Assembly: GCF_030824435.1 (NCBI RefSeq)
Contig: NZ_JAVBXS010000052.1
Coordinates: 1 to 63,795 of the forward strand
Source: Rheinheimera sp.
Lineage (GTDB): Bacteria > Pseudomonadota > Gammaproteobacteria > Enterobacterales > Alteromonadaceae
Direction of reading: 5' to 3'
DNA: 63,795 nucleotides
Within the stretch, counting starts at the first letter, position 1. Each line of letters opens with the position of its first letter. Of this stretch, positions 7,739 through 36,838 are shown piece after piece. The notes beneath the pieces were generated by a model. That model saw only the letters and a program-made list of their open reading frames with translations. It was not told the DNA's origin and did no database searches. The translations under genes were made by a program, and so were the position numbers.

Positions 7739-7836
7739 AACCCGCTACTCTTATGCTGCAAAAATTCTGTGTTTGGGCGGTTTCACCGCCAGCTGCGGCA
7801 GCGTGAAACGCTGCCAACTCTGTTGTTAAATGTTTT

Positions 7837-9498: not shown

Positions 9499-9512
9499 TG
9501 TAAAAATCCCCG

Positions 9513-11804: not shown

Positions 11805-11867
11805 TGTTGCACATCCACTTCTGACTTTAGGATGCTGCAAACTATAGAGTAGAAATATGTCAGAAAT

Positions 11868-11912: not shown

Positions 11913-12054
11913 AAACCCTGATAAAAGTTGGGGATATTTTTGCGAAAGCCAAAGTTTGAAAAAACACTTTAACCCTATTAAAGCAAAGACATAGAGCAAG
12001 ATTAAGGTTGATAACAGCGCCACGTCACTCAGTGATGTAGGCTCCCCCCACAAC

Positions 12055-12084
12055 CAACAAAGGCACCTGAAGGCGCCTTTGTTG
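12055..12084 (+). terminator. Hairpin between pstS and pstC promoter
   Basis: CAACAAAGGC pairs with GCCTTTGTTG. The T-run (TTTTT) follows on the plus strand, so the U-tract is on the wrong side for pstS. It may still end pstS transcripts as a bidirectional hairpin. No plus-strand gene nearby needs it. Confidence 0.4.
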
Positions 12085-12140
12085 TTTTTCATCTGCAGTT
12101 TATTGTGACAAAGGCGGTAGCGCCCGGCACAAGGTGCTGT

Positions 12141-13118: not shown

Positions 13119-13195
13119 TATGTTGTCCTCTGTTGGCGAAATCAGGCATTGGCCTTAGGTTCGAATCGATATCATCTTAAGAACTGAATGTGACA

Positions 13196-13229
13196 ATCAT
13201 AAGAATCTAATATGACACTATTATGACTA
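13196..13229 (-). promoter_or_regulatory. Pho box and -10 of pstS
   Basis: The minus strand at 13229-13211 reads TAGTCATAATAGTGTCATA, matching the consensus CTGTCATAAAACTGTCATA at about 15 of 19 positions. A 9-bp spacer leads to TATGAT (13201-13196) as the -10. The box takes the place of a -35, as in known PhoB-dependent promoters. This is one of the clearest sites in the window. Confidence 0.85.
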
Positions 13230-13426
13230 ATTGCCGATTTTCTGCTTTTTGTTCCCTTTGGTTATATTGTGTTTTTATGCCGAGGGTCTATAGTTTCCGC
13301 TGGCTGAAAATCAGCGGCTGTTTGCGACTAATGCCGCTCCAGGCGCTGGACATACCAGCGCTAAGCAGTTAAAACTACAACAACAAGTTTGTGAATGATG
13401 TACGACTTAAAACAAGGAATTGCGCT

Positions 13427-13933
13427 ATGAAGCAGTTGGTTCTGACACTGATTGGTAAAGATAAAGCAGGTTTGGTTGAACAGTTAGCCACTATTATTAA
13501 CGGCCACCACGGCAACTGGACCGCCAGCAACCTCAGCCATCTGGGCGGTTATTTTGCCGGTATTCTGCAGGTTGAAGTGGCAGAGGAGCATGCCGCTGCC
13601 TTAACTCAGGCCCTGGAAACCATGCAGGAACTGGATGTCAAAATCCATCAGGGCATAGAATCTAAAGTGAATGAACACAAGCTGCTGAAATTTGTCATCA
13701 CCGGCAACGATAGGCCAGGCATAGTAAGGGAACTATCATCGGTGATTAAACACAAAGGCACCAACATTATTCATTTTGAAAGTTCAAAACAAAGTGCACC
13801 GAACTGGGGTGTGCCACTGTTTAACGCCATTGCCACTGTTGAACTGCCGGAAGGTCTGAATAAAGACGAAGTGGTGCGGGCTTTAGAAGCCATCGCTTCA
13901 GATGTGGTGGTTGACGTCGAAAATCTGCATTAA
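13427..13933 (+). CDS. GcvR-like protein with two ACT domains
   Basis: The ATG at 13427 follows AAGGAA and gives a 168-residue protein beginning MKQLVLTLIGKDKAGLVEQL. Two ACT-type halves are visible: about residues 1-75 (LIGKDKAGLVEQLATII) and 80-165 (VITGNDRPGIVRELSSVIKHKG). This is the architecture of GcvR, the glycine-cleavage regulator that binds GcvA in E. coli. No gcv genes are near, so the regulatory target is unproven. It is divergent from pstS and just upstream of ppk1, which has its own Pho-type promoter. Annotation as an ACT-domain amino-acid-binding regulator is safe. Confidence 0.8.
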   Translation: MKQLVLTLIGKDKAGLVEQLATIINGHHGNWTASNLSHLGGYFAGILQVEVAEEHAAALTQALETMQELDVKIHQGIESKVNEHKLLKFVITGNDRPGIVRELSSVIKHKGTNIIHFESSKQSAPNWGVPLFNAIATVELPEGLNKDEVVRALEAIASDVVVDVENLH

Positions 13934-13974
13934 TACAACAATATAAAGGACAAGGTAGCCCGGCGCGGCTATCT

Positions 13975-14008
13975 TGTTCATAAAACTTTCATCAAACTGC
14001 CATAGAGT
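13975..14008 (+). promoter_or_regulatory. Pho box array upstream of ppk1
   Basis: Three 11-bp-phased 7-mers read TGTTCAT (13975), CTTTCAT (13986) and CTGCCAT (13997), separated by AAAA and CAAA. They resemble CTGTCAT repeats. A weak -10 (TAGAGT, 14003-14008) lies 9 bp after the first pair. E. coli ppk is also PhoB-regulated, which supports the reading. The start codon is at 14039. Confidence 0.65.
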
Positions 14009-14038
14009 GCCGCTACCCCTGCGGATGATGGTCACCTT

Positions 14039-16156: not shown

Positions 16157-17688
16157 CCCAGTTAACACCCAGTGCAATTGCTGCAGCCGAACTTATTGCT
16201 GCAGTTGACTTAGGCTCCAACAGTTTCCATCTGGTGATAGCACGTATCATGGATGGCGCTTTGCAGTTATTGCACCGGGAAAAACAAAAAGTACAGCTGG
16301 CAGATGGTCTGGATGAACATTTGCTGCTGAGTGAAGAGGCGATGAACCGTGGCCTGCTGGTGTTGAAACAATTTGCCGACACTTTACAGGGCGTGCCGCC
16401 GGCTTCGGTGCGGGTTATAGCTACTTACACTTTGCGCCGCGCCAAAAATGCCAACAACTTTTTACACAAAGCCAAAGCGGTATTCCCCTTTCCAATTGAA
16501 GTGATTTCAGGTCAGGAAGAAGCCCGTTTTATTTATCAGGGTGTGGCGCATTTTGAACATTATGCCGGTCAGCGTCTGGTGATGGACATTGGTGGTGGCA
16601 GTACCGAATTTGCCATAGGGTTAGACTTTCAGCCACTGCGTCTGGCCAGCCGTAATATGGGTTGCGTCAGTTATGCCAGACAGTTTTTTGCCAAAGGTAA
16701 AATCAGCGAAAAACGTTTTGAACGCGCCATTATTCAGGCCGAACAAGAGCTGGAAAACATTGTTAACAATTACAAAAGCACCGGCTGGCAGCAGGTGGTG
16801 GGCACTTCAGGCACCATCAAAACCATTAAAGACATTATCAGCGGCCTTGGCTGGCATCCACATTGTATTGAGCTTGTGCATCTGGAAAAAATCAAACAGC
16901 TGGCACTGGCGCATGAAAACTGTGATGAACTGGATTTACCAGGCCTGACCGAAGACCGCAAACAACTGCTGTGCCCCGGCCTCGCTATTTTAATTGCCGC
17001 TTTTAATATGCTGAATATTGACCAGATGTTGTATGTGGATGCCGCACTTCGCGAAGGGGTGTTGTACGAGATGAGCGACCGGCTGCAGCATCAGGATATC
17101 CGCAGCCATACCGTAGCCAGTTTAGTGAAACGTTATGCCATAGACACAGAACAAGCCGAACGGGTGAAAAACACAGTGTTGATGTTGCACGCTCAGGTGC
17201 AACAAGACTGGCAGCTTGACGGTGAATGGCCACAATTGCTTGGCTGGGCCGCCACTTTGTATGAAACTGGCCTGCAAATTAATTCGTCCAGTGTGCAGCG
17301 CCACAGTGCTTATATTCTGTCAAACACCAGCCTGCCCGGTTTTAATCAGGAACAACAACAGTTGTTGGCTTGCCTGGTGCGGTTTCACAGACGCAAAATT
17401 AAAAGTGATAAATTCCCGCCTTTTTATTTATTCCAGAGCCAACAGGTGTATCAGGCGCTGGCGTTATTTCGTCTTGCCATTTTATTTAATCAAAAACGCC
17501 GGGATGATGTGGTGCCTGAATTCAAACTCAGTGCCAGAGCAAATCAGCTGGAGCTACAAATTCCGCAGCAATGGTATCTGCAACAAAGTGTGCTGGCGGC
17601 GGATTTACTGGCAGAAAAAGAACATTTAGCCACGCTTGGCATTGAACTGCAGTGCCCTGGCCTTAGACAAACCTTGCTGGAAGAATAA
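16153..17688 (+). CDS. ppx: Exopolyphosphatase / guanosine pentaphosphatase family protein
   Basis: Ppx removes terminal phosphates from polyphosphate; relatives also hydrolyse pppGpp. The N-terminal ASKHA fold shows AVDLGSNSFHLVIARI (phosphate-1 loop) and MDIGGGSTEFAIG (phosphate-2 loop), with GTSGTIKTI as a further conserved loop. The C-terminal HD-like helical region follows from about residue 310. Length is 511 residues, as in E. coli. It overlaps ppk1 by 4 bases and ends at a strong terminator. Position after ppk1 favours Ppx over GppA. Confidence 0.94.
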   Translation: MTQLTPSAIAAAELIAAVDLGSNSFHLVIARIMDGALQLLHREKQKVQLADGLDEHLLLSEEAMNRGLLVLKQFADTLQGVPPASVRVIATYTLRRAKNANNFLHKAKAVFPFPIEVISGQEEARFIYQGVAHFEHYAGQRLVMDIGGGSTEFAIGLDFQPLRLASRNMGCVSYARQFFAKGKISEKRFERAIIQAEQELENIVNNYKSTGWQQVVGTSGTIKTIKDIISGLGWHPHCIELVHLEKIKQLALAHENCDELDLPGLTEDRKQLLCPGLAILIAAFNMLNIDQMLYVDAALREGVLYEMSDRLQHQDIRSHTVASLVKRYAIDTEQAERVKNTVLMLHAQVQQDWQLDGEWPQLLGWAATLYETGLQINSSSVQRHSAYILSNTSLPGFNQEQQQLLACLVRFHRRKIKSDKFPPFYLFQSQQVYQALALFRLAILFNQKRRDDVVPEFKLSARANQLELQIPQQWYLQQSVLAADLLAEKEHLATLGIELQCPGLRQTLLEE

Positions 17689-17725: not shown

Positions 17726-18907
17726 TTATTCTTTGTTTTCGTCTTTTTTCTGCTCTTCTGATCCCAGATCTGTCACAGTCACTGCACCTGCCTGATTGGC
17801 GCGGCGCAGTTGTAACTCTTTAATTTTTAACACCTGATCCGGTGCAAAGCGGCCATAATCTGCGGATTTGTCCATCACCGATTCTGCCAACATACCCACA
17901 TTTGCCACTTCGCCCCCGCCTGCCGAAGTAAAGGCATCCAACAAGGCGGCCGTGTTGGTCGCTGCACCACCACCAAACCTGCGGGTGGTACCAAAAATAT
18001 CAGTCACACTCCAATCTTCAATACTGGCAATCAGCTCTGAGTTTCGTTCCAGTGCAGCTTTGTCTTCAGCATTCAGATACTTCAGTAAATGTTCTTTTAA
18101 ATCCTGTTGAAAATCAGGGAAATAGCTGGCACTACGCTGATAAAAACCGGCAACCCTGAACCCATCTTTCCCAACAGGATAAGTACCACGGTTTGAGTTG
18201 ATAAATTCATGAGCGTTCATATTCAACATACGCGACACATTGGCTGCGCTATAAGCGCGGGCACGAATACTGGGGCTACCAATATAACCCTGATACAGGC
18301 CATAGATGATCTGTGGTTGATCCGGAAATTTTTTCTGCAGAATTTCAAACTGGATATCATTTAAACTCAGCTCAACACCGGCAACTTTCAATAACTTCCG
18401 TTGTAATAAACCGCCCTCACCGACAACAAAATCTTGCAGATTTTTAAGTGGATACACTTGAATAATTTCGTCGATCACTGTGATGTTATACAGGTTCAGC
18501 CAATAGGCCAGTTGCTCTTTATTGGAAAAATCTGACAGCTGGGCTTCGGACGGCAGTTTCTGCAAACTGTTGCGGATATTGCTGACAATCTGCCGCATTT
18601 GGGCATTATTTTTATACTCTTCAAACGAAAATCTGTTGCCAGCCATTGCGGTTAGCGGATTATGATTGTTTTTTAGCAGAGTACCGATAGACGCATTAGT
18701 GATTGCGGCCTTTTTCCTGCTGGGTAAGCCAGCGGATAACACCGAAGTTTGCAGCACCGCATCTAAATCATCGTAATTAATAGTCAAAACAGAATCTGCA
18801 GTTTCAGTAAAAAACGACGCTGGTAAAGCGGCCGGTTGAGCAAAGGCTGGGGCTGTCAGCATGGAGCACAAAGCCACAGCAATCAGTGTTTTTCTAAGAT
18901 TAAACAT
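17726..18907 (-). CDS. Exported DUF547 protein, copy A
   Basis: A 393-residue secreted protein with signal peptide (about 1-23, cleavage after APAFA). A DUF547 domain spans about 120-260, shown by AYWLNLYNITVIDEIIQVYP, GLYQGYIGSPSIRARAY and FINSNRGTYP. The C-terminus is charged (KKDENKE). It is the last of three tandem paralogues on this strand and is very close in sequence to copy B, including long identical stretches through the DUF547 core. The family has no firmly established activity. Position beside ppk1-ppx is suggestive only. Confidence 0.85.
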   Translation of the reverse strand: MFNLRKTLIAVALCSMLTAPAFAQPAALPASFFTETADSVLTINYDDLDAVLQTSVLSAGLPSRKKAAITNASIGTLLKNNHNPLTAMAGNRFSFEEYKNNAQMRQIVSNIRNSLQKLPSEAQLSDFSNKEQLAYWLNLYNITVIDEIIQVYPLKNLQDFVVGEGGLLQRKLLKVAGVELSLNDIQFEILQKKFPDQPQIIYGLYQGYIGSPSIRARAYSAANVSRMLNMNAHEFINSNRGTYPVGKDGFRVAGFYQRSASYFPDFQQDLKEHLLKYLNAEDKAALERNSELIASIEDWSVTDIFGTTRRFGGGAATNTAALLDAFTSAGGGEVANVGMLAESVMDKSADYGRFAPDQVLKIKELQLRRANQAGAVTVTDLGSEEQKKDENKE

Positions 18908-19024
18908 TAAATCTGTCCCTGTATTTGTTGTTTTTTTTTATTACCCAGCCACTGTTCAACGACATTAGGCCTATCTGAGTCTTTATGCACCAGCCATTTT
19001 AAGCGGCAGTTTCCCTTTAAAAAA
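18907..19024. other. Intergenic spacer between DUF547 copies A and B
   Basis: Holds the leader of copy A, including a T-rich stretch on the plus strand near 18930-18940. I see no gene or clear promoter in it. Confidence 0.3.
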
Positions 19025-19051
19025 TCAAAGGGCAGCGATGCTGCCCTTTGA
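19025..19051 (-). terminator. Terminator after DUF547 copy B
   Basis: TCAAAGGGCAGC and GCTGCCCTTTGA form a perfect 12-bp stem with a GAT loop. On the minus strand it runs into TTTTTAAA. It separates copy B from copy A, implying that A needs its own promoter. Confidence 0.85.
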
Positions 19052-19064
19052 ACTTTACTTCTTG

Positions 19065-20261
19065 TTATTCTTTGTTTTCGTCTTTTTTCTTCTCGTCTGA
19101 TTCCAGATCCGTCACAGTCACAGCACCTGCCTGATTGGCACGGCGCAGTTGTAACTCTTTAATTTTTAACGCCTGATCCGGTGCAAAGCGGCCATAAGTA
19201 ACAGAGCGGCTGGCCAGAGTGTCAGCCATTAAACCAATATTGGCCACTTCATTGTTGTCTGGTCCTCTATCCGGCCCCTGGGCAAAAGCATCCAATAACG
19301 CAGCTGAGTTATTGGCAGCACCACCACCAAAATTACGGGTGGTACCGTAAATATCGGTAATGCTCCAGTCTTCAATATTGGCGGTCAGTTCAGCCGTTTG
19401 TTCCAACGCTGCTTTGTCGTCTTCGTGCAGATATTCCAGCAAATGGTTTTTTAAATCCTGATGAAAATTCGGGAAATAACTGGCATTACGCTGATAAAAA
19501 CCAGCCACCCTGAACCCATCTTTCCCAACAGGATAAGTACCACGGTTGGAGTTGATAAATTCATTGGCGTTCATATTTAACATACGCGACACATTGGCTG
19601 CGGTATAAGCGCGGGCACGAATGCTGGGGCTACCAATATAACCCTGATACAGGCCATAGATGATCTGTGGTTGATCAGGAAATTTTTTCTGCAGAATTTC
19701 AAACTGAATATCATTTAAACTCAGCTCAACACCGGCAACTTTCAATAACTTCCGCTGTAATAAACCGTCTTCGCCCACAACAAAATCTTGCAGATTTTTA
19801 CGTGGATACACTTGAATAATTTCGTCTATCACTGTGATGTTATACAGGTTCAGCCAATAGGCCAGTTGCTCTTTGTTGGAAAAATCTGACAGCTGGGCTT
19901 CGGACGGCAGGTTCTGCAAACTGTTGCGGATATTGCTGACAATCTGCCGCATTTGGGCGTTATTTTTATACTCTTCAAACGAAAATCTGTTACCGGACGC
20001 TGCGGTTAACGTATTGCTGTTGTTTTTCATCCGGGTGCCCGTTGCCGCCGAGCTGGCCGTAGCTTTTTTCCGGCTTGGTAAACCACTGGATAACACTGAA
20101 GCCTGCAGCACAGCGTCTAAATCATCATAATTAATGCTAAAAGTTGAATCTGCCGTTTCTGCAAAAAAGGACTCTGGCAAAGGGGCTGTCTGCGCCCAGA
20201 CCGGTGTTGCCAACAAGGCACTGAAGCCAACGGCAATCAGCGTTTTGGTGAACTTGTGCAT
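19065..20261 (-). CDS. Exported DUF547 protein, copy B
   Basis: A 398-residue paralogue of copy A. The signal peptide ends near TPVWA-QTAPLP. The DUF547 core has the same landmarks (NLYNITVIDEIIQVYP, YQGYIGSPSIRARAY, FINSNRGTYP), and the tail is again DEKKKDENKE. Differences cluster in the signal peptide, at residues 65-80 and near 330-360, so the two copies are a recent duplication whose exposed segments have drifted. A terminator follows it, so it is probably monocistronic. Function unknown. Confidence 0.85.
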   Translation of the reverse strand: MHKFTKTLIAVGFSALLATPVWAQTAPLPESFFAETADSTFSINYDDLDAVLQASVLSSGLPSRKKATASSAATGTRMKNNSNTLTAASGNRFSFEEYKNNAQMRQIVSNIRNSLQNLPSEAQLSDFSNKEQLAYWLNLYNITVIDEIIQVYPRKNLQDFVVGEDGLLQRKLLKVAGVELSLNDIQFEILQKKFPDQPQIIYGLYQGYIGSPSIRARAYTAANVSRMLNMNANEFINSNRGTYPVGKDGFRVAGFYQRNASYFPNFHQDLKNHLLEYLHEDDKAALEQTAELTANIEDWSITDIYGTTRNFGGGAANNSAALLDAFAQGPDRGPDNNEVANIGLMADTLASRSVTYGRFAPDQALKIKELQLRRANQAGAVTVTDLESDEKKKDENKE

Positions 20262-20437
20262 AAAAAGTCTCCCCGTATTTTCTGGTGTTTGATCATCTTG
20301 TATACGGCGACCTCAACACTGCCGTTTATACTTTCCCGCCAGACTCCCCGACAGTGGGCACTTTTGCCCCCGTCAGGTTGTTAACTGTACCAACAACAGA
20401 AAATATCAACAGCAGCACAGCATCGCAAGTGCTGTTG

Positions 20438-21595
20438 TTATTTCCGGGTTTTGTTGTCTGTTTCTGCATTGGTTTTTTGTTGTGTTTCAGGCAAATCTGT
20501 CACTGTGACATTTCCACCCTCTTTTAAACGTCGCAAATTCAGCTGTTGCAGCTGTTTAATTTGCGCTGGCGACAGATGGCTGACTGCACGCTGCGAGCCG
20601 GCAATTTCAATAGTACTTGCTGCAGAATCTAACAAAGCCGCATCCGAAGTTGCAGCGCCACCACCGGCCTGCCGCAGCGTGCCATATAAATCCGTCACCG
20701 AATAATCGGTAATATCGGCTTTGAGTTCAGTCGCCTGCTGCAGTTGTTCTTTTTCTGTTGCCGGTAAAAAAGCCGCAAGATGCGCCGTTAAATCAGCCTG
20801 AAAATCCGGAAAATAAGACGCTGAACGCTGATAAAAACCCGACACCCTGAAACTGCCGCCAATACCCGGATAAGTACCTCGGTTCGACTGAATAAACTCA
20901 GTCGCCTGTTGTTGCAATAAGGCCTGCACATTGGCACCGGTATAAGCACGGCTGCTGATACTGGGGCTGCCAATATATCCCTGATACAAACCGTACAACA
21001 GTTTTGGCTCCAGACCAAACTGGGCCGGCAGCACTTTAAACTGAATGTCATCAAGGCTGAGCTTGATACCGCTAATAGTTAACAATGGCTGCTGTAACAG
21101 GCCATCTTCTGCCAGCATCAGTTGTTGCAGGTTACGTTGTGGGTAACGCTGGATCAGTTCATCCAGTACAGTGATATTGTATAAATTCAGCCAGTAGGCC
21201 AGTTGTTCATCTTTGGTCAGTTCATTCAGGGCTATTTCGTCCGGAATGGCACTGAGTTCAGCACGGATACGCTTTACCAACTGACGCATTTTTTCGTTAT
21301 GACGAAATCCTTCATACTGAAACCGTGCAGCACTCATATGAGTCAGAACGTTGCGCTGATTTCTGATCCTGCTATTGACTCCTGGCTCATCAGCGGCAGC
21401 AAAATCGCGGTTGGCAGGGCCAGCCGGTAATACTGCTGCACGCAACAATGCATCCAGATCGTCATAGCTGATTTGTATTTTTGATTCTGCAGTTGCACCG
21501 ATAAAACTGGCTGGTAAAGGGCTTGCGGCAACAGGTGCCTGCATCCATAACAATAAGCCAAGTACCAGAGTGCCGCTGATTTTGTGGTGTTCCAT
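20438..21595 (-). CDS. Exported DUF547 protein, copy C
   Basis: The start at 21595 follows AGGAG and begins MEHHKISGTLVLGLLLWMQ, a signal peptide; the open frame extends 21 codons further without signal-like sequence. The 385-residue product has the same layout as copies A and B (AYWLNLYNITVLDELIQRYP, GLYQGYIGSPSISSRAY, FIQSNRGTYP) but is clearly more divergent, so it is the older branch of the triplet. The C-terminal conserved LNLRRLKEGGNVTVTDL is shared with A and B. Confidence 0.85.
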   Translation of the reverse strand: MEHHKISGTLVLGLLLWMQAPVAASPLPASFIGATAESKIQISYDDLDALLRAAVLPAGPANRDFAAADEPGVNSRIRNQRNVLTHMSAARFQYEGFRHNEKMRQLVKRIRAELSAIPDEIALNELTKDEQLAYWLNLYNITVLDELIQRYPQRNLQQLMLAEDGLLQQPLLTISGIKLSLDDIQFKVLPAQFGLEPKLLYGLYQGYIGSPSISSRAYTGANVQALLQQQATEFIQSNRGTYPGIGGSFRVSGFYQRSASYFPDFQADLTAHLAAFLPATEKEQLQQATELKADITDYSVTDLYGTLRQAGGGAATSDAALLDSAASTIEIAGSQRAVSHLSPAQIKQLQQLNLRRLKEGGNVTVTDLPETQQKTNAETDNKTRK

Positions 21596-21876
21596 ACCTT
21601 CTCCTGAAATATCTGTGATCCATGCCTGCCATCCCATAGCCCGGGTGAGGCCCGCCAAAACACCAACATATTGTTATGAAAACGTAAAGTCAACCCAAAG
21701 TCTGGCAACAAAGTTAAAACGAATATCTTCTTTTCTGATAAACAACAGCAAGTTAGAACAGCAGCACTGCAACTGATCATTGGCTTTTGGCAGAAAGATA
21801 GGTACCTTAAAGTTTATCCAACCCACAAGATGCCTGCGCCTGCTAACAGGTCATTGCAGCACCGGAGATATTCATC

Positions 21877-24217: not shown

Positions 24218-25549
24218 TTATGACTTGCGGGCCGTTTTGGCTTGCTGCCGTGCAGGCAACACCAGCTCAGGTGGCAAAGCAAAAGAAAAACTACTGCCCC
24301 TTTTGGGTTCACTAAAAATCATCAGCCTGCTGTGATGACGGGACAATACATGCTTCACAATAGCCAGGCCTAAACCTGTGCCGCCGGTACTGCGGGTGCG
24401 GGCTTCATCCACCCGGTAAAACCTTTCTGTCAAACGTTTGACATGGTGAGCCGCTATGCCCTCGCCATTGTCAGTCACGCTAAACAAAGCTTTTTGATGT
24501 TCGCGCTGCCAGCTCACTTCAATCTTGCCGCCATCCGGGGTGTATTTAATGGCATTGGTAATTAAATTGGAAAAGGCACTACGCAGCTCTTCAGTGATGC
24601 CAGTCACTCGCAGATTGGGGTCAATCTGAAACAACAACTGATGTTGTTTTTCCCGGTTTAAACTGTGCGCTTCCTGCTCTAATAAAGTCAGCATGGCAGG
24701 CACATCCACCACTTCATCAAAATGGACTTTGGCAGCGGCTTCAATCCGCGACAAGGTCAGCAGCTGTTGCACCAAAGCGTCCATCCTTTTGGTCTGATCC
24801 AACATCACACCATGGGCCTTTTGCCAGACGTTGTTGGCAGGCATATGGTCGGCGTCCATCATTTCCAGATAACCCTGCAATACCGTCAACGGTGTACGTA
24901 GTTCGTGTGACACATTGGCGACAAAGTCTTTGCGAATTTGCTCCAGCTGTTTGAGCTGGGTAATATCGCGGATGATCAGCAGCTGCTGTTTTTCGCCATA
25001 CTGCAACATGCGGTACTCCAGCGTCACTTCTTCGGTCAGAGGTGACACCAGCTCCAGCGCATTATCAAATTGTTTTTGTTGCAAAAACTGCTGAAATTCC
25101 GGATTACGAATCAGGTTATCAATACGCTGGCGTTCATCCATAGGCCAGCGTAAACCCGCCAGCTGTTGCGCCAGTTTGTTACACCAGACAATGGTCCAGT
25201 CGTTGCTGAGCACCACTATCGCATCAGGTAAAGCTTCAGCACCATCGCGGAATCTGCGCACTAGAGCGCGTAATTCTTTGTTTTTCTTACGGGATTTACG
25301 TTGGCGATAATAAATGCCATCAAACACCTGTTGCCAGCTGCCATCGCCGGCCGGCGGTGACAACTTTCTATCACGCCACAGCCACTTATCCAGTAAAAAC
25401 AAATGCTTGTAATGCCAGCCAATAATGCCAACACACAAAACCAATAAAAATTCTGTAGCCAGATCAAATAACCAGCCGAACAATAAAGCGCCGGCGGCCA
25501 GACCTAGAAGCCGCAGCGTTATAGTGCGTTTGGAGAGCAATAATCGCAT
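24218..25549 (-). CDS. phoR: PhoR, phosphate-regulon sensor histidine kinase
   Basis: PhoR phosphorylates PhoB when phosphate is scarce. The 443-residue protein has two N-terminal membrane segments (about 12-28 and 33-50), a basic linker, a PAS domain (about 100-195), a HisKA domain with the phosphorylated histidine in FVANVSHELRTPLTVLQGY (about residue 215), and a HATPase_c domain with ITNAIKYTPDGG, DNGEGI and GTGLGLAIVKHV. It lacks a large periplasmic sensor, as expected for a kinase that senses through PhoU and Pst. It follows phoB after 72 bases containing a terminator-like hairpin. Confidence 0.97.
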   Translation of the reverse strand: MRLLLSKRTITLRLLGLAAGALLFGWLFDLATEFLLVLCVGIIGWHYKHLFLLDKWLWRDRKLSPPAGDGSWQQVFDGIYYRQRKSRKKNKELRALVRRFRDGAEALPDAIVVLSNDWTIVWCNKLAQQLAGLRWPMDERQRIDNLIRNPEFQQFLQQKQFDNALELVSPLTEEVTLEYRMLQYGEKQQLLIIRDITQLKQLEQIRKDFVANVSHELRTPLTVLQGYLEMMDADHMPANNVWQKAHGVMLDQTKRMDALVQQLLTLSRIEAAAKVHFDEVVDVPAMLTLLEQEAHSLNREKQHQLLFQIDPNLRVTGITEELRSAFSNLITNAIKYTPDGGKIEVSWQREHQKALFSVTDNGEGIAAHHVKRLTERFYRVDEARTRSTGGTGLGLAIVKHVLSRHHSRLMIFSEPKRGSSFSFALPPELVLPARQQAKTARKS

Positions 25550-25621: not shown

Positions 25622-26308
25622 TTACTTTACCGAAAAACGGTAGCCAGAGCCACGAACTGTTTGCACTAATCTGTCGTGCCCTGCCACCGAAATGGCTTTA
25701 CGCAAACGGCGGATATGTACGTCCACAGTACGGTCTTCGACATACACATTGGTGCCCCAGACATGGTCCAACAGCTGTTCACGGCTGTACACCCGCTCCG
25801 GATGCGTCATAAAAAAGTGGAGTAAACGAAATTCAGTTGGGCCCATTTCCAGCGGATTTTCCGCCGCCATCACCCGGTGTGACACCGGATCCAGCTTCAG
25901 GCCCTGCACTTCAATCACTTCATCCAGGCTGGTTGGCGCCACACGGCGGATCACCGCTTTAATACGTGCCATCAGCTCTTTGGGTGAAAATGGCTTAGTG
26001 ACATAATCGTCAGCGCCTACTTCCAGTCCACGCACCTTGTCTTCTTCTTCACCACGGGCGGTGATCATAATGATAGGAATGGCACGGGTTAACTCGTGTT
26101 GTTTCATCTTTTTTGCGATCTGAATACCACTGCCCCCCGGTAACATCCAGTCCAGCAACACTAAATCCGGATAAGGTTCTACCAGCTGATTCATGGCTGC
26201 GTCAAAGTCACCGGCCGTACTGGCCTGATAACCATTTTGCTCCAGCACAAAACACAGCATATCGCGGATTGGTGCTTCATCTTCCACAATCAAAATTCTT
26301 CTCGACAT
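25622..26308 (-). CDS. phoB: PhoB, phosphate-regulon response regulator
   Basis: PhoB binds Pho boxes and activates phosphate-starvation genes. The 228-residue protein has a receiver domain (phospho-acceptor Asp53 in [10 protein letters not shown], acidic pocket VEDE, Lys in YVTKPFSP) and an OmpR-type winged helix ([31 protein letters not shown] and [12 protein letters not shown]). The recognition-helix region is that of PhoB. A Pho box in its own promoter indicates autoregulation. Confidence 0.98.
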
Positions 26309-26343
26309 AACCTGTCACCCACCTGTCCTGTTGTATTGGACTT

Positions 26344-26377
26344 AGTATCTGCTGCCATTATGACAATTTTATGAAAC
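26344..26377 (-). promoter_or_regulatory. Pho box and -10 of phoB
   Basis: The minus strand at 26377-26359 reads GTTTCATAAAATTGTCATA, about 16 of 19 matches to the PhoB consensus. A 9-bp spacer leads to GATACT (26349-26344) as a -10. This fits autoregulation of phoBR. Confidence 0.8.
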
Positions 26378-26530
26378 AAAAGGCGGCTTTTTCCAAAACG
26401 GCGTCTTTTGTGAAATAAATGTCATGCATCTTAGCCGCCTGATCTGCCCCTTTTTTGCATTTTACAAGCCAGCCAAAGCTGATGGCGCTTTATTCTTCCC
26501 TGAAAAAGCACCAACAAACGCACCAGCGAC

Positions 26531-26549
26531 TGTGACAGTTTTATGAAGT
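26531..26549 (-). promoter_or_regulatory. Second Pho-box-like site in the phoB/lipoprotein intergenic region
   Basis: The minus strand reads ACTTCATAAAACTGTCACA, about 16 of 19 consensus matches, with a perfect downstream repeat. No -10 is found at the 9-bp spacing, so it may be an auxiliary PhoB site rather than a promoter. Confidence 0.55.
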
Positions 26550-26599
26550 TTTTTCTGCCAAATTGCCGCCAGCCCTTGGTTTTTGTTGCTGTTGTGTCG

Positions 26600-26640
26600 C
26601 TGTCATCTGCCTGTCGATTTTCTGTCATAAAAAAGTCACG
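26600..26640 (+). promoter_or_regulatory. Tandem Pho boxes upstream of the beta-helix lipoprotein
   Basis: Four 7-mers start exactly 11 bp apart on the plus strand: CTGTCAT (26600), CTGTCGA (26611), CTGTCAT (26622) and AAGTCAC (26633). The last pair, with the AAAA spacer, matches the full PhoB box at about 16 of 19 bases. Only a weak -10 (TACCTT at 26650) is visible at 9 bp. The array points at the gene starting at 26723. Confidence 0.75.
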
Positions 26641-26722
26641 GCCATCTTTTACCTTCAGCTCAGTTTTTTAATAGCTGATTTTAGTTCCTTGAGTTTTAAA
26701 CCCTGGCCCGATGGAGAATATG

Positions 26723-29422
26723 ATGGCTTTTGCAAAAATTTTAAAATTAAGCGCTATGGCTTCAGCGCTGGCGTTGGCCGGTTGTGGCGGTGGCGATATA
26801 GTCGTAAATACCGGTAGCAGCACCAGCCCGACCACACCAACCAACCCAACTACCCCAACAACTCCACCGCCGGCTTCCGTCTGCCCTGCTTTTGCCAAAC
26901 AAGGTGCAGCTTTAGGTGGCGTGACTAAACCAATTTGTGAAATCACCGGCACTTTAACCGCAGACGCCACTTTAACTGCCAATATCGCCTGGGCTTTAAG
27001 CGGTAAAGTTGCAGTGGGTAACGACAATGCCAATAGCGCAGTGCTGACCATTGAACCAGGCACCACCATTTTTGGTAAATCCGGTGCAGATTACCTGGTG
27101 ATTGCCCGTGGTTCACAAATCCGTGCTGTAGGCACCAGCGCCAGCCCAATCGTCTTTACTTCTGTCAACGACATGATTGGCTCTGTGAACGAAGACTCTA
27201 CCGCCCAATGGGGTGGTTTAGTGTTATTAGGTAAAGCCCCAAGCAACAAATGTGACGCTGCGGCCCTTGCCAGCTGCAAAATTGAAGCTGAAGGCAACGC
27301 CGGCCCATACGGCGGTGATAAACCGGAAGATAACAGCGGTATTTTAAAATTTGTGCAGGTGAAATATGCCGGTTTTGAAGTATTAACCGACAACGAATTA
27401 AATGGTATTACCTTTGCCGGTGTCGGCTCAGGCACCACTGTGGATTACATTCAGGTGCATAACAACCTGGACGACGGTGTGGAGTTTTTTGGTGGTAACG
27501 TCAATGCCAAACATGTGGTATTAACCGGTAACCGCGACGACTCATTAGACTGGGCAGATGGCTGGACAGGCAAAATGCAACATGTGCTGATTCAGCACAG
27601 CAAAACCGACGCCAAAGCCAACCGTGGTATTGAAGCCGATAACCAGTCCGGTAATTTTTCTGCTTCCCCTGTCAGTAAACCAAAAATTGCCAACATGACC
27701 ATTCTTGGCAACAACTACAAATCTGCCGACGCCGACTCTGAAGGTATTTTGCTGCGCGCCGGTACTGCAGGTGAAATTTACAACACCATTATTAAAGGCC
27801 CGGCCGCTATGGGCGAGTGTCTGGAAATTGAAACCGAGCAGTCAGTACAACAAGCACAAAACGGTGCTTTGTTAATGCGTAACTCCATTATTGACTGTAA
27901 AGAGCCGTTTAAAAATCCAAAAGACGCTGCCGGCAACACCCTGCTGGACGTGAAAAACTGGTTTATGGCGCAAACAGGCAATATGACAACTGACGCGCTG
28001 CTGGGCGGTTATATGCCAGCTTCAACTTCTCCAGCGCTGAAAAACGGTTACAACGTGTCGAACTTTGTGGATGCCTGGTTTGACGATGTTGACTACATCG
28101 GCGCCTTTGATGGTGTGTCGGACTGGACCAAAGGCTGGACCTTCGGCCTGCATGCTTCTACTGCTATTGCAGCCTGCCCTGCCGGCACCGCAGAAGTTGC
28201 CTCTTTAACAGGTAAATTAAACTGTGAACTCAAAGGTGATATCACCAGCAACGTCACTTTAGTGGCAGGTGCTGATTATGTGTTAAACGGCCGGGTGCGT
28301 ATTGGTGTGGACAACACCACAGCAGCCACTTTAACAGTACAACCTGGTGTCACAGTATACGGCCGCTCAGGTGCTGACTTCCTGGTGGTCACCCGCGGTT
28401 CAAAAATTAACGCCGAAGGCACACAACAAAACCCTATTACCTTCACTTCACTGCAAGACGTGATTGGCGCGCCAACAGCGGCCGGTCAATGGGGCGGTAT
28501 GGTGTTATTGGGTAAAGCCCCAAGCAACAAGTGTGACCAGGCCAACCTGGCTGCCTGTAAAATTGAAGCTGAAGGCAACGCCGGCCCTTATGGTGGTGCT
28601 GATGTGAACGACAACTCAGGCGTGCTGAAATATGTGCGGGTGAAACACGCAGGTTATGAAGTACTGCAGGACAACGAATTAAACGGCATTACCTTCGCCG
28701 GTGTGGGCGCAGGCACAACCGTCAGCCATATTCAGGTACACCAGAACCTGGACGACGGTGTTGAGTTCTTTGGTGGTACTGTCAACGTCAAATATGTCGT
28801 TTTAACCAGCAATGGCGACGACTCACTGGACTGGGCTGATGGCTGGACAGGTAAAGGCCAGTATTTCCTGGTAAAACACGCTGCCAACAATGCTGAAGCC
28901 AACCGTGGTATCGAAGCCGACAACCAGTCGTCTAAGTTCGATGCAACACCAATTTCGAACCCAACCATCGCCAATATGACCATTATCGGTAACACCTATA
29001 AGTCTGCCGAAAAAGACTCTGAAGGTGTGTTGTTACGTGCCGGTACCAATGCCCAACTGCATAACTTCCTGATCACAGGCCCAACAGGTATGGGTGAGTG
29101 TCTGGAAATTGAAACTGCCCAGTCTCAGGCGCTGGCCGCTTCGGGTGCACTGGTGATGACTCACTCTGTGATTGGTTGCCCTGAACCATTTAAAGGCACA
29201 GTGTCTGCCACTCAAACTGTTAAACAGTGGTTTGAAGGTCAGACCGGCAATAAAACTGCTGCTGATCAGGCTGCAGTGTTGAATGGCATTTACACCATCG
29301 ACACCACAACACCAAAAGACATGTCAGCTGTAAACAGCTTTTTCAGCAAGTCCGCCACTGTGGGCGCTGTAGATGCCAGCAGCGACTGGACCAAAGGCTG
29401 GACTGTTGGTTTAGGTCAATAA
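26723..29422 (+). CDS. Surface lipoprotein with two tandem right-handed beta-helix-like halves
   Basis: The ATG at 26723 is chosen because GGAG lies just upstream; an ATG at 26711 would place this site inside the gene. The product is 899 residues. It has a lipoprotein signal (ALALAGC, Cys near residue 20) and a Thr/Pro-rich linker (SPTTPTNPTTPTTPPP). Two homologous domains follow, about 55-435 and 480-890, each with AQWGG or GQWGG, LGKAPSNKCD, KIEAEGNAGPYGG, DNELNGITFAGVG, LDDGVEFFGG and DDSLDWADGWTGK. The Asn/Asp/Gly-rich turns suggest a solenoid. Tandem Pho boxes precede it and a TonB receptor follows. A role in binding a phosphorus source is inferred. Confidence 0.8.
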   Translation: MAFAKILKLSAMASALALAGCGGGDIVVNTGSSTSPTTPTNPTTPTTPPPASVCPAFAKQGAALGGVTKPICEITGTLTADATLTANIAWALSGKVAVGNDNANSAVLTIEPGTTIFGKSGADYLVIARGSQIRAVGTSASPIVFTSVNDMIGSVNEDSTAQWGGLVLLGKAPSNKCDAAALASCKIEAEGNAGPYGGDKPEDNSGILKFVQVKYAGFEVLTDNELNGITFAGVGSGTTVDYIQVHNNLDDGVEFFGGNVNAKHVVLTGNRDDSLDWADGWTGKMQHVLIQHSKTDAKANRGIEADNQSGNFSASPVSKPKIANMTILGNNYKSADADSEGILLRAGTAGEIYNTIIKGPAAMGECLEIETEQSVQQAQNGALLMRNSIIDCKEPFKNPKDAAGNTLLDVKNWFMAQTGNMTTDALLGGYMPASTSPALKNGYNVSNFVDAWFDDVDYIGAFDGVSDWTKGWTFGLHASTAIAACPAGTAEVASLTGKLNCELKGDITSNVTLVAGADYVLNGRVRIGVDNTTAATLTVQPGVTVYGRSGADFLVVTRGSKINAEGTQQNPITFTSLQDVIGAPTAAGQWGGMVLLGKAPSNKCDQANLAACKIEAEGNAGPYGGADVNDNSGVLKYVRVKHAGYEVLQDNELNGITFAGVGAGTTVSHIQVHQNLDDGVEFFGGTVNVKYVVLTSNGDDSLDWADGWTGKGQYFLVKHAANNAEANRGIEADNQSSKFDATPISNPTIANMTIIGNTYKSAEKDSEGVLLRAGTNAQLHNFLITGPTGMGECLEIETAQSQALAASGALVMTHSVIGCPEPFKGTVSATQTVKQWFEGQTGNKTAADQAAVLNGIYTIDTTTPKDMSAVNSFFSKSATVGAVDASSDWTKGWTVGLGQ

Positions 29423-29428
29423 CAACAC

Positions 29429-29462
29429 AAGCCGCCGGCGTTATGGCCGGCGGCTTTGTTTT
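29429..29462 (+). terminator. Terminator after the beta-helix lipoprotein
   Basis: AAGCCGCCGGC pairs with GCCGGCGGCTT (11 bp), followed by TTGTTTTT. It sits before the TonB-receptor gene, so that gene depends on read-through or its own promoter. Confidence 0.85.
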
Positions 29463-29589
29463 TGCCACTGTCCTATGACAACAGCAAGACAAACACAAGA
29501 CAGCAATAAGACAACGGTTCGACACATTTGACGCGGCTGCCCTGCACCTGATGCACAGCCACCAAGTTAGCCCACAGGAATGAATAAAG

Positions 29590-32277
29590 ATGAGCAGCAA
29601 GCATAGTTTTCAATACAACCGCGTGAATCTGGGTGTGCTTTTGGCTTTAGCCACCAGCGCTGCCGTAGTTTTTATGCCCGCCTCTGCTAAAGAAACCCAA
29701 ACCCCCGATGCCGCGCCTGTTGCCCTGCAACCGCTGGCTGAACAGGTTGAACGTATTAATGTTTCAGGCCGTTTATTAAGCTCTGCCGCCGCTACTGCCG
29801 AAGAGCGCCGCCAGCAACCTTATGTGGCTGAACTTTTGGGCATGGAACAAATTTCCCGTGCCGGTGACAGCAATGCCGCCAGCGCCCTGCGCCGCGTCAC
29901 AGGTCTGACGCTGGTCAAAGACAAATTTATATATGTGCGTGGTTTAGGTGAACGTTATTCGTCCACATTGCTAAACGGCGCTCAGGTGCCAAGCCCGGAT
30001 CCAACCCGCAACGTGGTACCGCTGGATATGTTCCCGGCCGGCATTATTGAAAGTATGGTGGTACAAAAAGCCTATTCACCGGAATTACCTGCCGCCTTTG
30101 GTGGTGGTAACGTCAATATCCGCACCGTCAGTATTCCGCGTGAAGAAATTTTTAACTTTTCTATTGGCACCGGTTACAACAGCTTAAGTTCAGACGACGG
30201 CCTTGATTATCAGGGTGGCTCTGATGACTGGCGTGGTAAAGACGATGGTTCGCGCGGTTTGTCCTCAGGCCTGCAACAAGCGCTGGACCAGTATGGTTCG
30301 CTGGATGTGGTGAAAATTGCCCAGGGTCTGGGTGGTGTCAGCGCAGAAAATCTGGCCAAAGCCGAAGCCATTAACCGCAGTCTTGGCCTTGAGCTGAACC
30401 GCAATATGGATTTTCGCAAAAAAAGCATCGGCCCTGAATACGACGGCAGCATGTCTTATGGCAACAGATTTGACATAGGCCAGACGGTTTTTGGTCTGAT
30501 GGCTGGCGTGAGTTACGACAAATCTTCGGAAAACTTTAAAGAGCAGGAACGTTATTATTCCATCAGCTCGGGCAGTAATTTAACGCCACTGAACCGTTAC
30601 GACGATATCCGCGGCACCGAACATCAGGTGAAAATGTCGGGCATGCTGAACTTTGGTCTGGAATGGGATGAAAACCACAGATTTGAAACCTCCAGCATTT
30701 ATCTGGCCGACACCAAAGACGAGCTGAAAATCAAAACCGGTGATTCGATTGAAACCATCAACGAACAAAACCGCGAAAACGAAGATTATTCAGTGTTGTA
30801 TGAAGAACGCACCATGCTGACCAATCAGATCCGCGGCCGTCATACCCTGAATTTCCTCAATGATTTAGCGCTGGACTGGCAATACACAGACGCCAAAGCC
30901 GAACGTTATGCGCCAAACGAAGTGGAATACCGTTATGTGCGCCAGCTGGCCAATGACGGCAGCCTGGAAAACCGCACCATGCGCCGCAGCGACAACGCCG
31001 CTATTTATCAGTTTGGTACTTTGGAAGACAACACCGAAAACGCCAGCTGGAACGCCAAATACCCTATGACCCTGGGCGACACTGAGCTGAGCCTGAGCGC
31101 AGGTTATGCCTATTTTGAGCGCCAGCGTAACGCCAGCACCAACAGATTTAAAATGGATACCCGCGGTTTTAGCAACGAAGAGTTAAGCCAGGCTTATTCG
31201 GCGATTTTCTCCGATGCCAATATCAGCAACCCTGCGAAGAAGTTTTTATTATCTGACGTGACAGCCCAGGCCGACGATTATGTGGCGGCCCAGCAAACAG
31301 ACGCTGCTTATGCCGGTGTAGAAGCCACTTACGACATGACCTGGCGGGTGAATGCCGGTGTGCGTTATGAAGACTTCCGTCAGGTGTCTATTCCGCTGAA
31401 CCCGGCCACAGGCGCTATTGAAGGCAACCTGAGCGACTTCCCACGCCAGGAAGACGACCTCTACCCTTCTCTGGCAGTGACCTGGATGCAGTCGGAAGAA
31501 AACCAATACCGTTTTGGTTTTTCTGAAACCGTAGTGCGGCCGGATTTACGCGAAGTGACGCCAGTGCTCTTTATCGACCCTATCACCGACTTTAAAGTCA
31601 TTGGTTTTTCCGGTTTAAAAAGCACCAGCATCAGCGCTTACGACTTACGCTGGGAGCAATACCTGGACAGCGGCAGCAACTACAGTCTGGGTTTGTTTTA
31701 TAAAGACTTAACCAACCCTATTGAAGCGGTTGAACTCAAAGGTTCTGACGGTAACCTGCTGATGTCATTCAGAAATGCGCTCGGCGGTGAAGTCTATGGT
31801 GTAGAAGCCGAAGCCCTGCAAAAACTGGATATGTTTGAAGGCAGTGTTGGCGAAGTGCTGGATAACTTCTTTGTGGTGAGTAATTTCACATACAGCGAAT
31901 CCGAAATTGAAATTGAATCGCTGGGTGAAACCAACCTGACTAACTTAAAACGCCCGCTTACCGGCCACAGCAAATATGTGGTGAATATGCAGCTGGGTTT
32001 TGACTCCGACAACGAAGCGCACACCGCCACTTTAACCTACAACGTCTTTGGTAAACGTATTGCTTTTGCCGGCATCGACGGTAAAGACGACGCTTACGAG
32101 CAGCCATTCCACTCACTGGATTTTGTGTACTCTTACAATGTGTTGCCAGAAGGCACCATTAAAGTATCCGCAAAAAACCTGCTGAATAAAGACGTGGAAA
32201 TTCTGCAACAAGGCGAAATTTTACAGCGCCGCGAGCAAGGCCGCAGTGTGGGCTTAAGTTATAGCCAGCGGTTTTGA
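29590..32277 (+). CDS. TonB-dependent outer-membrane receptor
   Basis: An 895-residue outer-membrane receptor for energised import. After a signal peptide (about 1-33) the plug domain (about 70-185) shows ISRAGDSNAASALRRVTGL, FIYVRGLGERYSSTLLNGA and PDPTRNVVPLDMFPAGIIES. The remainder has alternating beta-strand character and ends in an aromatic residue (YSQRF), as outer-membrane barrels do. No TonB box is obvious. It is of the RGLGERY type often encoded beside surface lipoproteins that capture the ligand, so pairing with the upstream Pho-controlled lipoprotein is plausible. Ligand unknown. Confidence 0.92.
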   Translation: MSSKHSFQYNRVNLGVLLALATSAAVVFMPASAKETQTPDAAPVALQPLAEQVERINVSGRLLSSAAATAEERRQQPYVAELLGMEQISRAGDSNAASALRRVTGLTLVKDKFIYVRGLGERYSSTLLNGAQVPSPDPTRNVVPLDMFPAGIIESMVVQKAYSPELPAAFGGGNVNIRTVSIPREEIFNFSIGTGYNSLSSDDGLDYQGGSDDWRGKDDGSRGLSSGLQQALDQYGSLDVVKIAQGLGGVSAENLAKAEAINRSLGLELNRNMDFRKKSIGPEYDGSMSYGNRFDIGQTVFGLMAGVSYDKSSENFKEQERYYSISSGSNLTPLNRYDDIRGTEHQVKMSGMLNFGLEWDENHRFETSSIYLADTKDELKIKTGDSIETINEQNRENEDYSVLYEERTMLTNQIRGRHTLNFLNDLALDWQYTDAKAERYAPNEVEYRYVRQLANDGSLENRTMRRSDNAAIYQFGTLEDNTENASWNAKYPMTLGDTELSLSAGYAYFERQRNASTNRFKMDTRGFSNEELSQAYSAIFSDANISNPAKKFLLSDVTAQADDYVAAQQTDAAYAGVEATYDMTWRVNAGVRYEDFRQVSIPLNPATGAIEGNLSDFPRQEDDLYPSLAVTWMQSEENQYRFGFSETVVRPDLREVTPVLFIDPITDFKVIGFSGLKSTSISAYDLRWEQYLDSGSNYSLGLFYKDLTNPIEAVELKGSDGNLLMSFRNALGGEVYGVEAEALQKLDMFEGSVGEVLDNFFVVSNFTYSESEIEIESLGETNLTNLKRPLTGHSKYVVNMQLGFDSDNEAHTATLTYNVFGKRIAFAGIDGKDDAYEQPFHSLDFVYSYNVLPEGTIKVSAKNLLNKDVEILQQGEILQRREQGRSVGLSYSQRF

Positions 32278-32396: not shown

Positions 32397-32445
32397 ATTG
32401 CTGACACCGTAAATTGTGCTCAGCTGCCCCTCAACTGCTGACGTT

Positions 32446-32805
32446 GTTTTGTGATGCCTGCGGCATGGCTTAAAAAGCACGGCTGCCACTTAAACCACCA
32501 CCGGCAACTACGCCGTTCGCCCGTTCGCGCTCACTCTTGAATGCTCACTCTGCAGTTCCCGCTGTTGGTTTTTGCGATTGATGCTATTGGCAAGAGTCAA
32601 GACTTGACCCTATGGGTTTTGTTTTGTTATGCCTGCGGCGTGGCGTAAAAAAGCATGACTGGCACTTAAACCACCACCGGCAACTACGCCGTTCGCCCGT
32701 TCGCGCCTCCCGCGCTCACTCTTGAATGCTCACTCTGCAGTTCCCGGTGTTGGTTTTTCCTATCGGTACTATTGACAAGAGTCAAGGCTTGGCCCTAAGG
32801 GTTCT
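32446..32805 (+). repeat. Tandem duplication, two copies of about 175-185 bp
   Basis: Copy 1 (32446-32620) and copy 2 (32621-32805) share an ordered set of segments: GTTTTGTKATGCCTGCGGC, a block from ACTTAAACCACCACC through CTACGCCGTTCGCCCGTTCG, then CTTGAATGCTCACTCTGCAG and a GACAAGAGTCAAG-like 3' part. Copy 2 has a small insertion (CCTCCCGC) after the TTCGCG. No open frame is conserved. It borders the attC-like region to the right. Confidence 0.85.
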
Positions 32806-35623: not shown

Positions 35624-36559
35624 TTAGAACTTATGTTCTAAACCAATGGCCAGATAGTCGCTGTCTACTTTGTTATCAAAATCAAAGCTGGAATACCAGG
35701 CGAATAATTTGGTGTCTTTGCCCAGTTTATAGTCGGCGCCCAGGCTGTAACCATCGTGCTCTTCCAACGTCTGGAACTGTGCTTTTAATTCATATTTTTC
35801 AATTGGGTAAGCCACGTTTGCCAGCCAGCCGTCATCTTTGGCACCACCGGCCATAGGTTCCTGTTGCTGCACACCGGCACCCAGTTTAAAACCAGCTAAT
35901 TTGGTTTGCACAAAAGCACGGCTGGTGTCATAACCGCTGATATCGTTGTCCATCGCAATAGAAGCGTAAATGGCGCTGTCTTTTAAACCATCATCACCAT
36001 ACATCAGCGCCACTGACTGGCCGTCCTGACCTTTGGCTGAGTCTTCCATCACATGGCTGACCAACACTGAAAAACCGTTAAAAGACGGGCTGATATAGGC
36101 CAGAGAATTACTCATCCGGTTTTCACCTTTCCACAAGGTTTTAATATCCGCTTCGTAATCGTTAAATAAATCCATTTTGCCTTGTGACAGCTTCAGTGCA
36201 GTGTCGTTGCGGCCGGCTTTAATAGTACCAAAGCTGCCTTTAATACCAATAAACTGGTCACGGGCTTTAATATTTTTTTCGTTGGCTTCATCTGAAGGGT
36301 CAACTTCCCATTCCAGCTGATACACCAGCGTCAGTTCGCCATCCAGCGCATAATCGCCTTTTAAGCCAAAGCGGGAAGCATTACTTTTTAACTCGCTGAA
36401 CGAACCTTCACCTTCGTCAGATTGTTGTGCCGTCACGTTAATTTTACCGTAGACAGTCAAAGGGTCGGCCTGTAACGGTAAAGACAAGCCGGATAACAGC
36501 GCAAGCAACAAGGTGTTTTTAACAAAGGTATTCTTTACGAACATATTCTTGGCGAACAT
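35624..36559 (-). CDS. Outer-membrane porin, Gram-negative porin family
   Basis: A 311-residue 16-strand-type porin. The signal peptide follows an odd N-terminus in which a five-residue unit (MFAKN, MFVKN, TFVKN) repeats three times; the DNA is a 15-bp tandem repeat. The mature protein begins near DPLTVYGKINVTAQQ and ends LEHKF with the terminal phenylalanine. Loop 3 holds the ELEWEVD- and DQFIGIKGSFGTIKAGR-type segments of the family. AAGGATT precedes the ATG. An upstream Pho box suggests induction by phosphate starvation, perhaps for anion or phosphate passage. Pore selectivity cannot be read from sequence. Confidence 0.88.
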   Translation of the reverse strand: MFAKNMFVKNTFVKNTLLLALLSGLSLPLQADPLTVYGKINVTAQQSDEGEGSFSELKSNASRFGLKGDYALDGELTLVYQLEWEVDPSDEANEKNIKARDQFIGIKGSFGTIKAGRNDTALKLSQGKMDLFNDYEADIKTLWKGENRMSNSLAYISPSFNGFSVLVSHVMEDSAKGQDGQSVALMYGDDGLKDSAIYASIAMDNDISGYDTSRAFVQTKLAGFKLGAGVQQQEPMAGGAKDDGWLANVAYPIEKYELKAQFQTLEEHDGYSLGADYKLGKDTKLFAWYSSFDFDNKVDSDYLAIGLEHKF

Positions 36560-36737
36560 AGGTAAATCCTTCTCAGCATTGAGGAAAAAGGTTCGACAGC
36601 TTAAGCCCGTTGAGTATAACCGCTTCAGTTAAAATTCAAGGGCGAAACCGGCAACAGCGCGGAAATTTTCCGCTTTATCACAGTTAAGTGTCTGTTAAAT
36701 GACAATTTAGCGTCATTTTCATGGCGTTCGGGTGGCT

Positions 36738-36771
36738 ATTTTATGGCTGTTATATGACAAGAATATGACAG
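36738..36771 (-). promoter_or_regulatory. Pho box and -10 upstream of the porin
   Basis: The minus strand at 36771-36753 reads CTGTCATATTCTTGTCATA, about 17 of 19 matches to the PhoB box. A 9-bp spacer leads to TAAAAT (36743-36738). Start of transcription would be near 36731, giving a leader of about 170 bases. A second, weaker array of CTGTCAT-like repeats lies inside the leader near 36680-36720. Confidence 0.75.
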
Positions 36772-36838
36772 CACAACACCGACCAGTGGCCGCTGCTGTG
36801 TTGTTATTGTTCGTGGGGTTGTTTTACGGGCTGCTTGT

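Follow-up and report, generated by a model that had tools for sequence, protein, structure and literature searches.

In Caulobacter crescentus, the lipoprotein ElpS (CC0170) is made on phosphate starvation, displayed at the surface and then released; its secretion is reported to accompany extracellular phosphatase activity, and its release to be helped by type II secretion (PMC2996285). The same study places elpS with the gene for a TonB-dependent receptor (TBDT), CC0171, adjoining type II secretion genes, describes CC0171 as constitutive and ElpS production as continuing after CC0171 was deleted, and mentions Shewanella homologs of ElpS. According to a second paper, the C. crescentus PhoB regulon includes the type II secretion system (T2SS), PstSCAB and various TBDTs (PMC11208175). 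Flavobacterium johnsoniae has the lipoproteins FI-FIII, kin of the Caulobacter one, which are polygalacturonase-like, 31-36% identical to the Caulobacter lipoprotein over 50-54% coverage and strongly induced in low phosphate; the FII lipoprotein and a TBDT are reported to lie in the phoBR operon, and the low-phosphate loci, lipoprotein kin included, to be repressed under nitrogen and iron limitation (PMC8115612).

Here we describe a locus in a 63,795-nucleotide stretch of Rheinheimera sp. DNA (the window). An earlier note, made from the sequence alone, had read it as a PhoB-controlled surface lipoprotein and TBDT forming a candidate phosphorus-scavenging system. Its observation is sound and its regulatory reading largely right, and a system of this kind is already in print. 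The features discussed below are:

24218-25549, minus strand: phoR (over the NF008235 and TIGR02966 cut-offs)
25622-26308, minus strand: phoB (over the TIGR02154 cut-off)
26360-26377, minus strand: box pair GTTTCAT-AAAA-TTGTCAT before phoB, candidate for phoB autoregulation (box scan)
26532-26549, minus strand: box pair ACTTCAT-AAAA-CTGTCAC on the phoB side (resampling)
26589-26639, plus strand: array of five PhoB-box-like 7-mers in 11-bp steps (sequence read, shuffles, genome pattern scan, genus alignment)
26711-29422, plus strand: two-domain ElpS-type beta-helix lipoprotein (ORF, lipobox, alignments, model, fold search)
29423-29589, plus strand: 167-bp gap holding a hairpin that resembles a terminator, GCCGCCGGC...GCCGGCGGC followed by T-rich sequence (by eye)
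29475-29525, minus strand: TTGTCTT-like 7-mers in 11-bp steps, forming a reversed array in the lipoprotein-TBDT gap (pattern scan, eye)
29590-32277, plus strand: TBDT with Plug and barrel, the lipoprotein's partner (domain search, alignment, model)

A doubled ElpS-type lipoprotein and its receptor

For comparison with ElpS we used L095 of Caulobacter vibrioides T5M6 in place of the CC0170 sequence. Its locus runs lipoprotein, TBDT, gspD, gspE, gspF, gspG, with an unnamed small ORF at the gspC place, and since this is the published elpS order, we took L095 to be the ElpS ortholog. The Rheinheimera lipoprotein aligns to L095 twice (36% over 448 columns and 39% over 441 columns), and the two TBDTs align at 29% over 928 columns. 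Homologous lipoprotein and TBDT genes in a shared order thus make it almost certain that the pair is of the ElpS/CC0171 kind, and the suggestion of a new candidate system was not borne out.

As at the elpS locus, a homologous lipoprotein with a lipobox is followed by a homologous TBDT, but the Rheinheimera protein has two tandem domains whereas ElpS has a single beta-helix domain (about 50 kDa). Its neighbours are phoBR rather than gspC-N, and no T2SS gene adjoins the pair; a type II secretion neighbourhood is frequent, not universal, among ElpS/TBDT pairs. A strong PhoB-box array precedes the gene, unlike at the Caulobacter loci tested, where no significant box pair was found. With FI-FIII of F. 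johnsoniae, which belong to another phylum and are likened here by description, not by sequence, the locus shares TBDT neighbours, phoBR linkage and low-phosphate induction, reported there and predicted here; two of those lipoproteins are reported to lie downstream of the TBDT, unlike the lipoprotein-first order seen here. In working, the pair would resemble SusCD/PusCD and TbpA-TbpB, each a TBDT with a surface lipoprotein, yet its beta-helix lipoprotein has neither the SusD nor the TbpB fold, and we claim no membership of these groups. Three things set the locus apart from known pairs: the form with two domains, its phoBR-pstS neighbourhood and, in three species, a second box array that is reversed. 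Among the matches listed in our literature search, none dealt with the doubled form or with such a phoBR-pstS neighbourhood in Gammaproteobacteria; the passages of the P. tunicata genome paper that name PhoR/PhoB do so without mention of such a pair.

Translation of the lipoprotein ORF likely begins at 26720 or 26723. The protein (P0001) carries the lipobox LAGC, with similar ones visible by eye in relatives, and its two domains (residues ~57-486 and ~488-903) share 58% identity over 427 residues. Neither Pfam nor NCBIfam has a family that claimed it; Pfam gave sub-threshold Beta_helix and Methyltransf_18 matches and no SusD family, PDB sequence searches returned nothing useful, and no catalytic family was detected by any of these searches. 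There is no second copy in the same genome at E<=0.001. The N half was modelled as a strand-rich fold (pLDDT 85, pTM 0.89); among solved folds it comes closest to beta-helix lyases, glycosidases and tailspikes, a general likeness with a best E of 6.5e-3. The duplication noted earlier is confirmed by the alignment of the halves; the fold matches that point to a beta-helix are weak. As Foldseek with the domain gave no match at E<=0.001 (TM 0.16-0.36 by query length in the best 50 rows), we claim no enzyme class. The two-domain protein was left unfolded because the conserved columns of its full-length alignment cover the N half, to which the copy in the C half was aligned as well (60%). Many of the domain's invariant residues are Asp or Glu, a composition that does not favour a bare polyanion as ligand; DDG-x-E and DDS-x-D are conserved acidic motifs.

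How the doubled form arose was approached with a domain tree of 60 rows (59 different) chosen from 116. N and C halves fall in separate clades within several lineages, and in some proteins they stand side by side. On this tree each of the labels N and C takes 9 changes, 9 of them forced by well-supported branches, compared with 17.9 in shuffles, and we rejected a single duplication for all two-domain proteins on this ground. Either the doubling arose repeatedly or the halves were homogenised in place; gene conversion between the halves within a protein would yield the same picture.

The TBDT lies where the earlier note put it, after the lipoprotein. Its model is fair (pLDDT 75), and its structural matches are general to the fold, the nearest solved structures being mostly siderophore, haem and metal receptors. 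A PDB sequence search with the TBDT matched colicin I receptor chains alone, in the plug region, and a single-sequence PDB search found nothing. Hairpin-like inverted repeats are visible by eye in the same lipoprotein-TBDT gap of genus relatives; the two genes are presumably co-transcribed. Downstream of the TBDT, at about 32440-32780, we noted by eye an imperfect direct repeat of ~150 bases.

PhoB boxes before the lipoprotein gene

The PhoB-box consensus is CTGTCAT, as the earlier note also gave it. Direct repeats of this type at 11-bp spacing, a feature of the PhoB regulon, lie upstream of the lipoprotein. The four boxes described earlier, at 26600 (CTGTCAT, 7/7 matches to the consensus), 26611 (CTGTCGA, 5/7), 26622 (CTGTCAT, 7/7) and 26633 (AAGTCAC, 4/7 and weak), are all present, and we add a fifth at 26589 (CTGTTGT, 5/7) in the same 11-bp register. 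In 5000 dinucleotide shuffles of the 402-bp gap between phoB and the lipoprotein (26309-26710), the observed score for three, four or five boxes was never reached and that for two boxes was reached nine times; within this gap, the box score at spacing 11 exceeds those at spacings 8-10 and 12-15. Across the 3,920,935-base genome, CTGTC-N6-CTGTC-N6-CTGTC occurs without mismatch at one site, which is this array. With up to two mismatches the pattern has 12 places, as does its backwards control, so only the exact and one-mismatch matches are informative, and both of these fall in the array. As a single pair the site is unremarkable, with two mismatches to the 18-bp pair pattern, to which six genome places have one mismatch and many others two.

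The array is not the only one in the window, where 14 positions reach a four-box score of at least 19: at the array itself, in the lipoprotein-TBDT gap, at a porin gene, at pstS and in ORF 58755-60392. The high-scoring boxes of pstS, a Pho gene, serve as a positive control. The reversed gap array ranks second in the window by score; by eye, among the 21 genus loci, it is found only here and in the two closest relatives. Two box arrays on the minus strand (36666-36782) lie upstream of the porin gene (35624-36559), which suggests PhoB control of the porin. Box-like arrays at 60022-60161, scoring 19 and 20 of 28, lie within the minus-strand ORF 58755-60392, which is without a known Pho link; positions 60022 and 60122 there reach the threshold of 19.

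The boxes are also conserved in relatives. A plus-strand box pair (P<=0.045) is present at each of the 21 genus loci, though these are close relatives and not independent; the piece they conserve most is the proximal pair, some 60-100 bp ahead of the start, made up of a CTGT(A/C)A-type box, an AAAA-type spacer and an AGTCA-type box. From other genera and families came 14 upstream regions (12 family context genomes plus G040 and G050), and 12 of them hold a box pair at 11-bp spacing with P<=0.05; the two without a significant pair, G025 (P 0.098) and G032 (P 0.52), both adjoin phoB. Among named Alphaproteobacteria and Xanthomonadales, 18 of 57 loci reach P<=0.05, another 23 of the 80 having been skipped for want of a motif, lipobox, start or upstream sequence. 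By the CTGTCAT-type motif, no significant pair was found at nine Caulobacter loci (L081, L082, L084, L088, L089, L090, L095, L096 and L151; P 0.25-0.88) or at 13 Xanthomonas loci (P 0.09-0.53). Averaged over loci, the best score among spacings 7-16 is that of spacing 11 in each of the three sets (genus: 11.86, next best 10.38; other genera: 11.0, next best 10.79; named loci: 9.75, next best 9.11); a backwards-motif control also peaks at 11, because it shares CTGTC.

Shuffle statistics, box pairs in other genera, phoBR/pstS linkage and ElpS homology all support the reading of PhoB control, and we predict from boxes, linkage and homology that the lipoprotein is very probably regulated by PhoB. 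A pair under joint control, as the earlier note had it, is another matter: PhoB control of the lipoprotein is well supported, but its extension to the TBDT is not, since CC0171 was reported constitutive and a hairpin that looks terminator-like by eye lies between the genes. That the array serves phoB autoregulation alone, with the pair outside PhoB control, would fit its position between divergent genes. The array is oriented towards the lipoprotein, however, and phoB has its own minus-strand pairs closer to its start; pairs like that at 26360-26377 are present in many genus loci, and the pair at 26532-26549 is the top minus-strand one in the 350 bp that lead up to the lipoprotein (P 0.03, 200 resamples). 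The boxes are also kept at loci with no phoB in the stretch (L167, L168, L169, L170, L171, L176, L177 and L178), and we regard this explanation as very improbable.

Linkage to phosphate genes across relatives

The lipoprotein gene is divergent from phoB, as originally described; the phoB product passes the TIGR02154 cut-off but is below that of the stricter NF007546. Elsewhere in the window, a phosphate island (4045-17688) holds a PHO4-family transporter, DUF47, phoU-pstB-pstA-pstC-pstS, ppk1 (polyphosphate kinase) and a Ppx/GppA-family gene (phosphatase), and three consecutive DUF547 paralogs (17726-21658) lie between the ppx-like gene and the phoBR region.

A homolog of the lipoprotein is present in 36 of 60 genomes, own included. 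The long form occurs in 21 of 22 genus genomes (again counting our own); in the other, G020, the sole match, at 38%, lies in a 571-aa frame. The co-occurrence of the pair with phoBR is seen at 20 of the 21 genus loci, where phoB is divergent (the contig of L024, the exception, has only 142 bp before the match), and in 6 of 13 genomes of other family genera, where the pair lies within 5 kb of phoB-phoR (G023, G025, G027, G030, G032 and G369). This family count leaves out G028 and eight further family genomes with lipoprotein matches. Context stretches cover 12 of the 13 other-genus genomes in which phoB was placed. Five of them (G023, G025, G027, G030 and G032) have the order phoB-phoR-(pstS)-lipoprotein-TBDT on one strand, with pstS seen in four, and in G369 the pair is divergent from porin-phoB-phoR-pstS; phoB is absent from the stretch in G022, G026, G031, G033, G034 and G035, and on a different contig from the pair in G337.

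Farther afield, a phylum scan found lipoprotein matches at E<=1e-15 in 51 of 398 genomes, and single-domain relatives of ~500-600 residues occur in Alphaproteobacteria and elsewhere. A scan of named taxa gave 152 relatives, of which 80 were kept, from groups that include Caulobacter, Phenylobacterium, Brevundimonas, Hyphomonas, Sphingomonas, Lysobacter and Xanthomonas. A TBDT lies immediately downstream at 71 of these 80 loci; of the nine others, five stop shortly past the lipoprotein, and the remaining four (L111, L116, L148 and L156) have room downstream with no match to the TBDT motif. The same arrangement holds in 16 of 18 context stretches, the exceptions being the two of G157, with the TBDT upstream of the lipoprotein, 0.6 and 7 kb away. 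These two (L174 and L175) hold two lipoprotein/TBDT sets, each with a phoB-like gene in the same 20-kb stretch.

As to type II secretion, 14 of 39 genomes checked have gspD no more than 4.5 kb from the lipoprotein. Among the 80 named loci, 58 include gspD in the stretch retrieved (43 of 54 stretches of at least 15 kb), and none of the 80 stretches has phoB at E<=1e-30. In the stretches of 12 family genomes, gspC-gspG had no match around the pair. In our genome, the best gspD is on contig C54 and the pair is inside contig C55.

What the pair may do

We suggest the following model. In low phosphate, PhoR would activate PhoB, which would bind the array at 26589-26639 and drive transcription of the lipoprotein gene. 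The TBDT gene would be transcribed by read-through, if the terminator-like hairpin leaks, or from a promoter that is weaker, and the lipoprotein should therefore outnumber the receptor. Anchored in the outer membrane, the lipoprotein would be displayed at the surface, as reported for ElpS, from which its exposure here is inferred by analogy. A phosphorus-bearing macromolecule would be held by its two beta-helix domains; since polysaccharides are the substrates of the nearest solved folds, a glycan-like one is most likely. The domains would pass on this molecule, whole or in fragments, to the TBDT, which would import it with the help of TonB, and phosphatases and PstSCAB would then take over.

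In our judgement the best explanation, and a probable one, is an ElpS/TBDT pair that scavenges at the outer membrane as part of the Pho regulon. ElpS homology and phoBR/pstS linkage support a phosphorus-scavenging pair; the ligands first proposed for it, DNA, polyphosphate or teichoic material, did not find support. We hold the import role to be somewhat favoured too, while a glycan-type cargo is a tentative suggestion. Counted against the best explanation are the constitutive CC0171 and the making of ElpS without it, and the release of ElpS fits an enzyme or helper as well as it fits a receptor lid.

The chief rival is a surface or released helper or enzyme: an ElpS-type lipoprotein that works on the cell surface or once it has been released. 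It might, for instance, bind or carry a phosphatase or open phosphorylated polysaccharides, with the TBDT taking only the products or serving a separate use. The reported link of ElpS secretion to extracellular phosphatase activity and the reported aid of type II secretion in its release speak for this rival, as do the lyases and glycosidases among the nearest folds and the conserved DDG-x-E and DDS-x-D motifs. Yet the lipoprotein is closely paired with a TBDT, gspC-gspG had no match in the stretches of the 12 family genomes, gspD does not adjoin the pair here, and the searches detected no catalytic family; we consider this rival a real but distinctly less likely possibility. The many invariant acidic residues, together with solved receptors for siderophores, haem and metals nearest to the TBDT, could instead point to import of a metal or cofactor for starvation enzymes, such as the Ca or Fe that phosphatases may need. 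Matches of that sort are general to the TBDT fold, though, the lipoprotein fold is of the polysaccharide type, and the Flavobacterium low-phosphate loci are reported as repressed under nitrogen and iron limitation, which leaves metal or cofactor import improbable.

The scavenging pair could be taken further, to a TonB-linked importer of a phosphorus-bearing polymer that has a polysaccharide-lyase-like beta-helix as its binder at the surface. Independent, repeated doubling of the domain would let a long ligand made of repeats be bound at two points, and the reversed second array ahead of the TBDT gene would set how much binder is made relative to receptor. We offer this as speculation and think it rather unlikely as a whole. 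Lipoproteins of the ElpS type are widespread, with strong induction on starvation reported for two species, and the phoB-phoR-pstS-lipoprotein-TBDT linkage found in several genera, together with the doubled domain, makes this a compact system for testing what such pairs carry.
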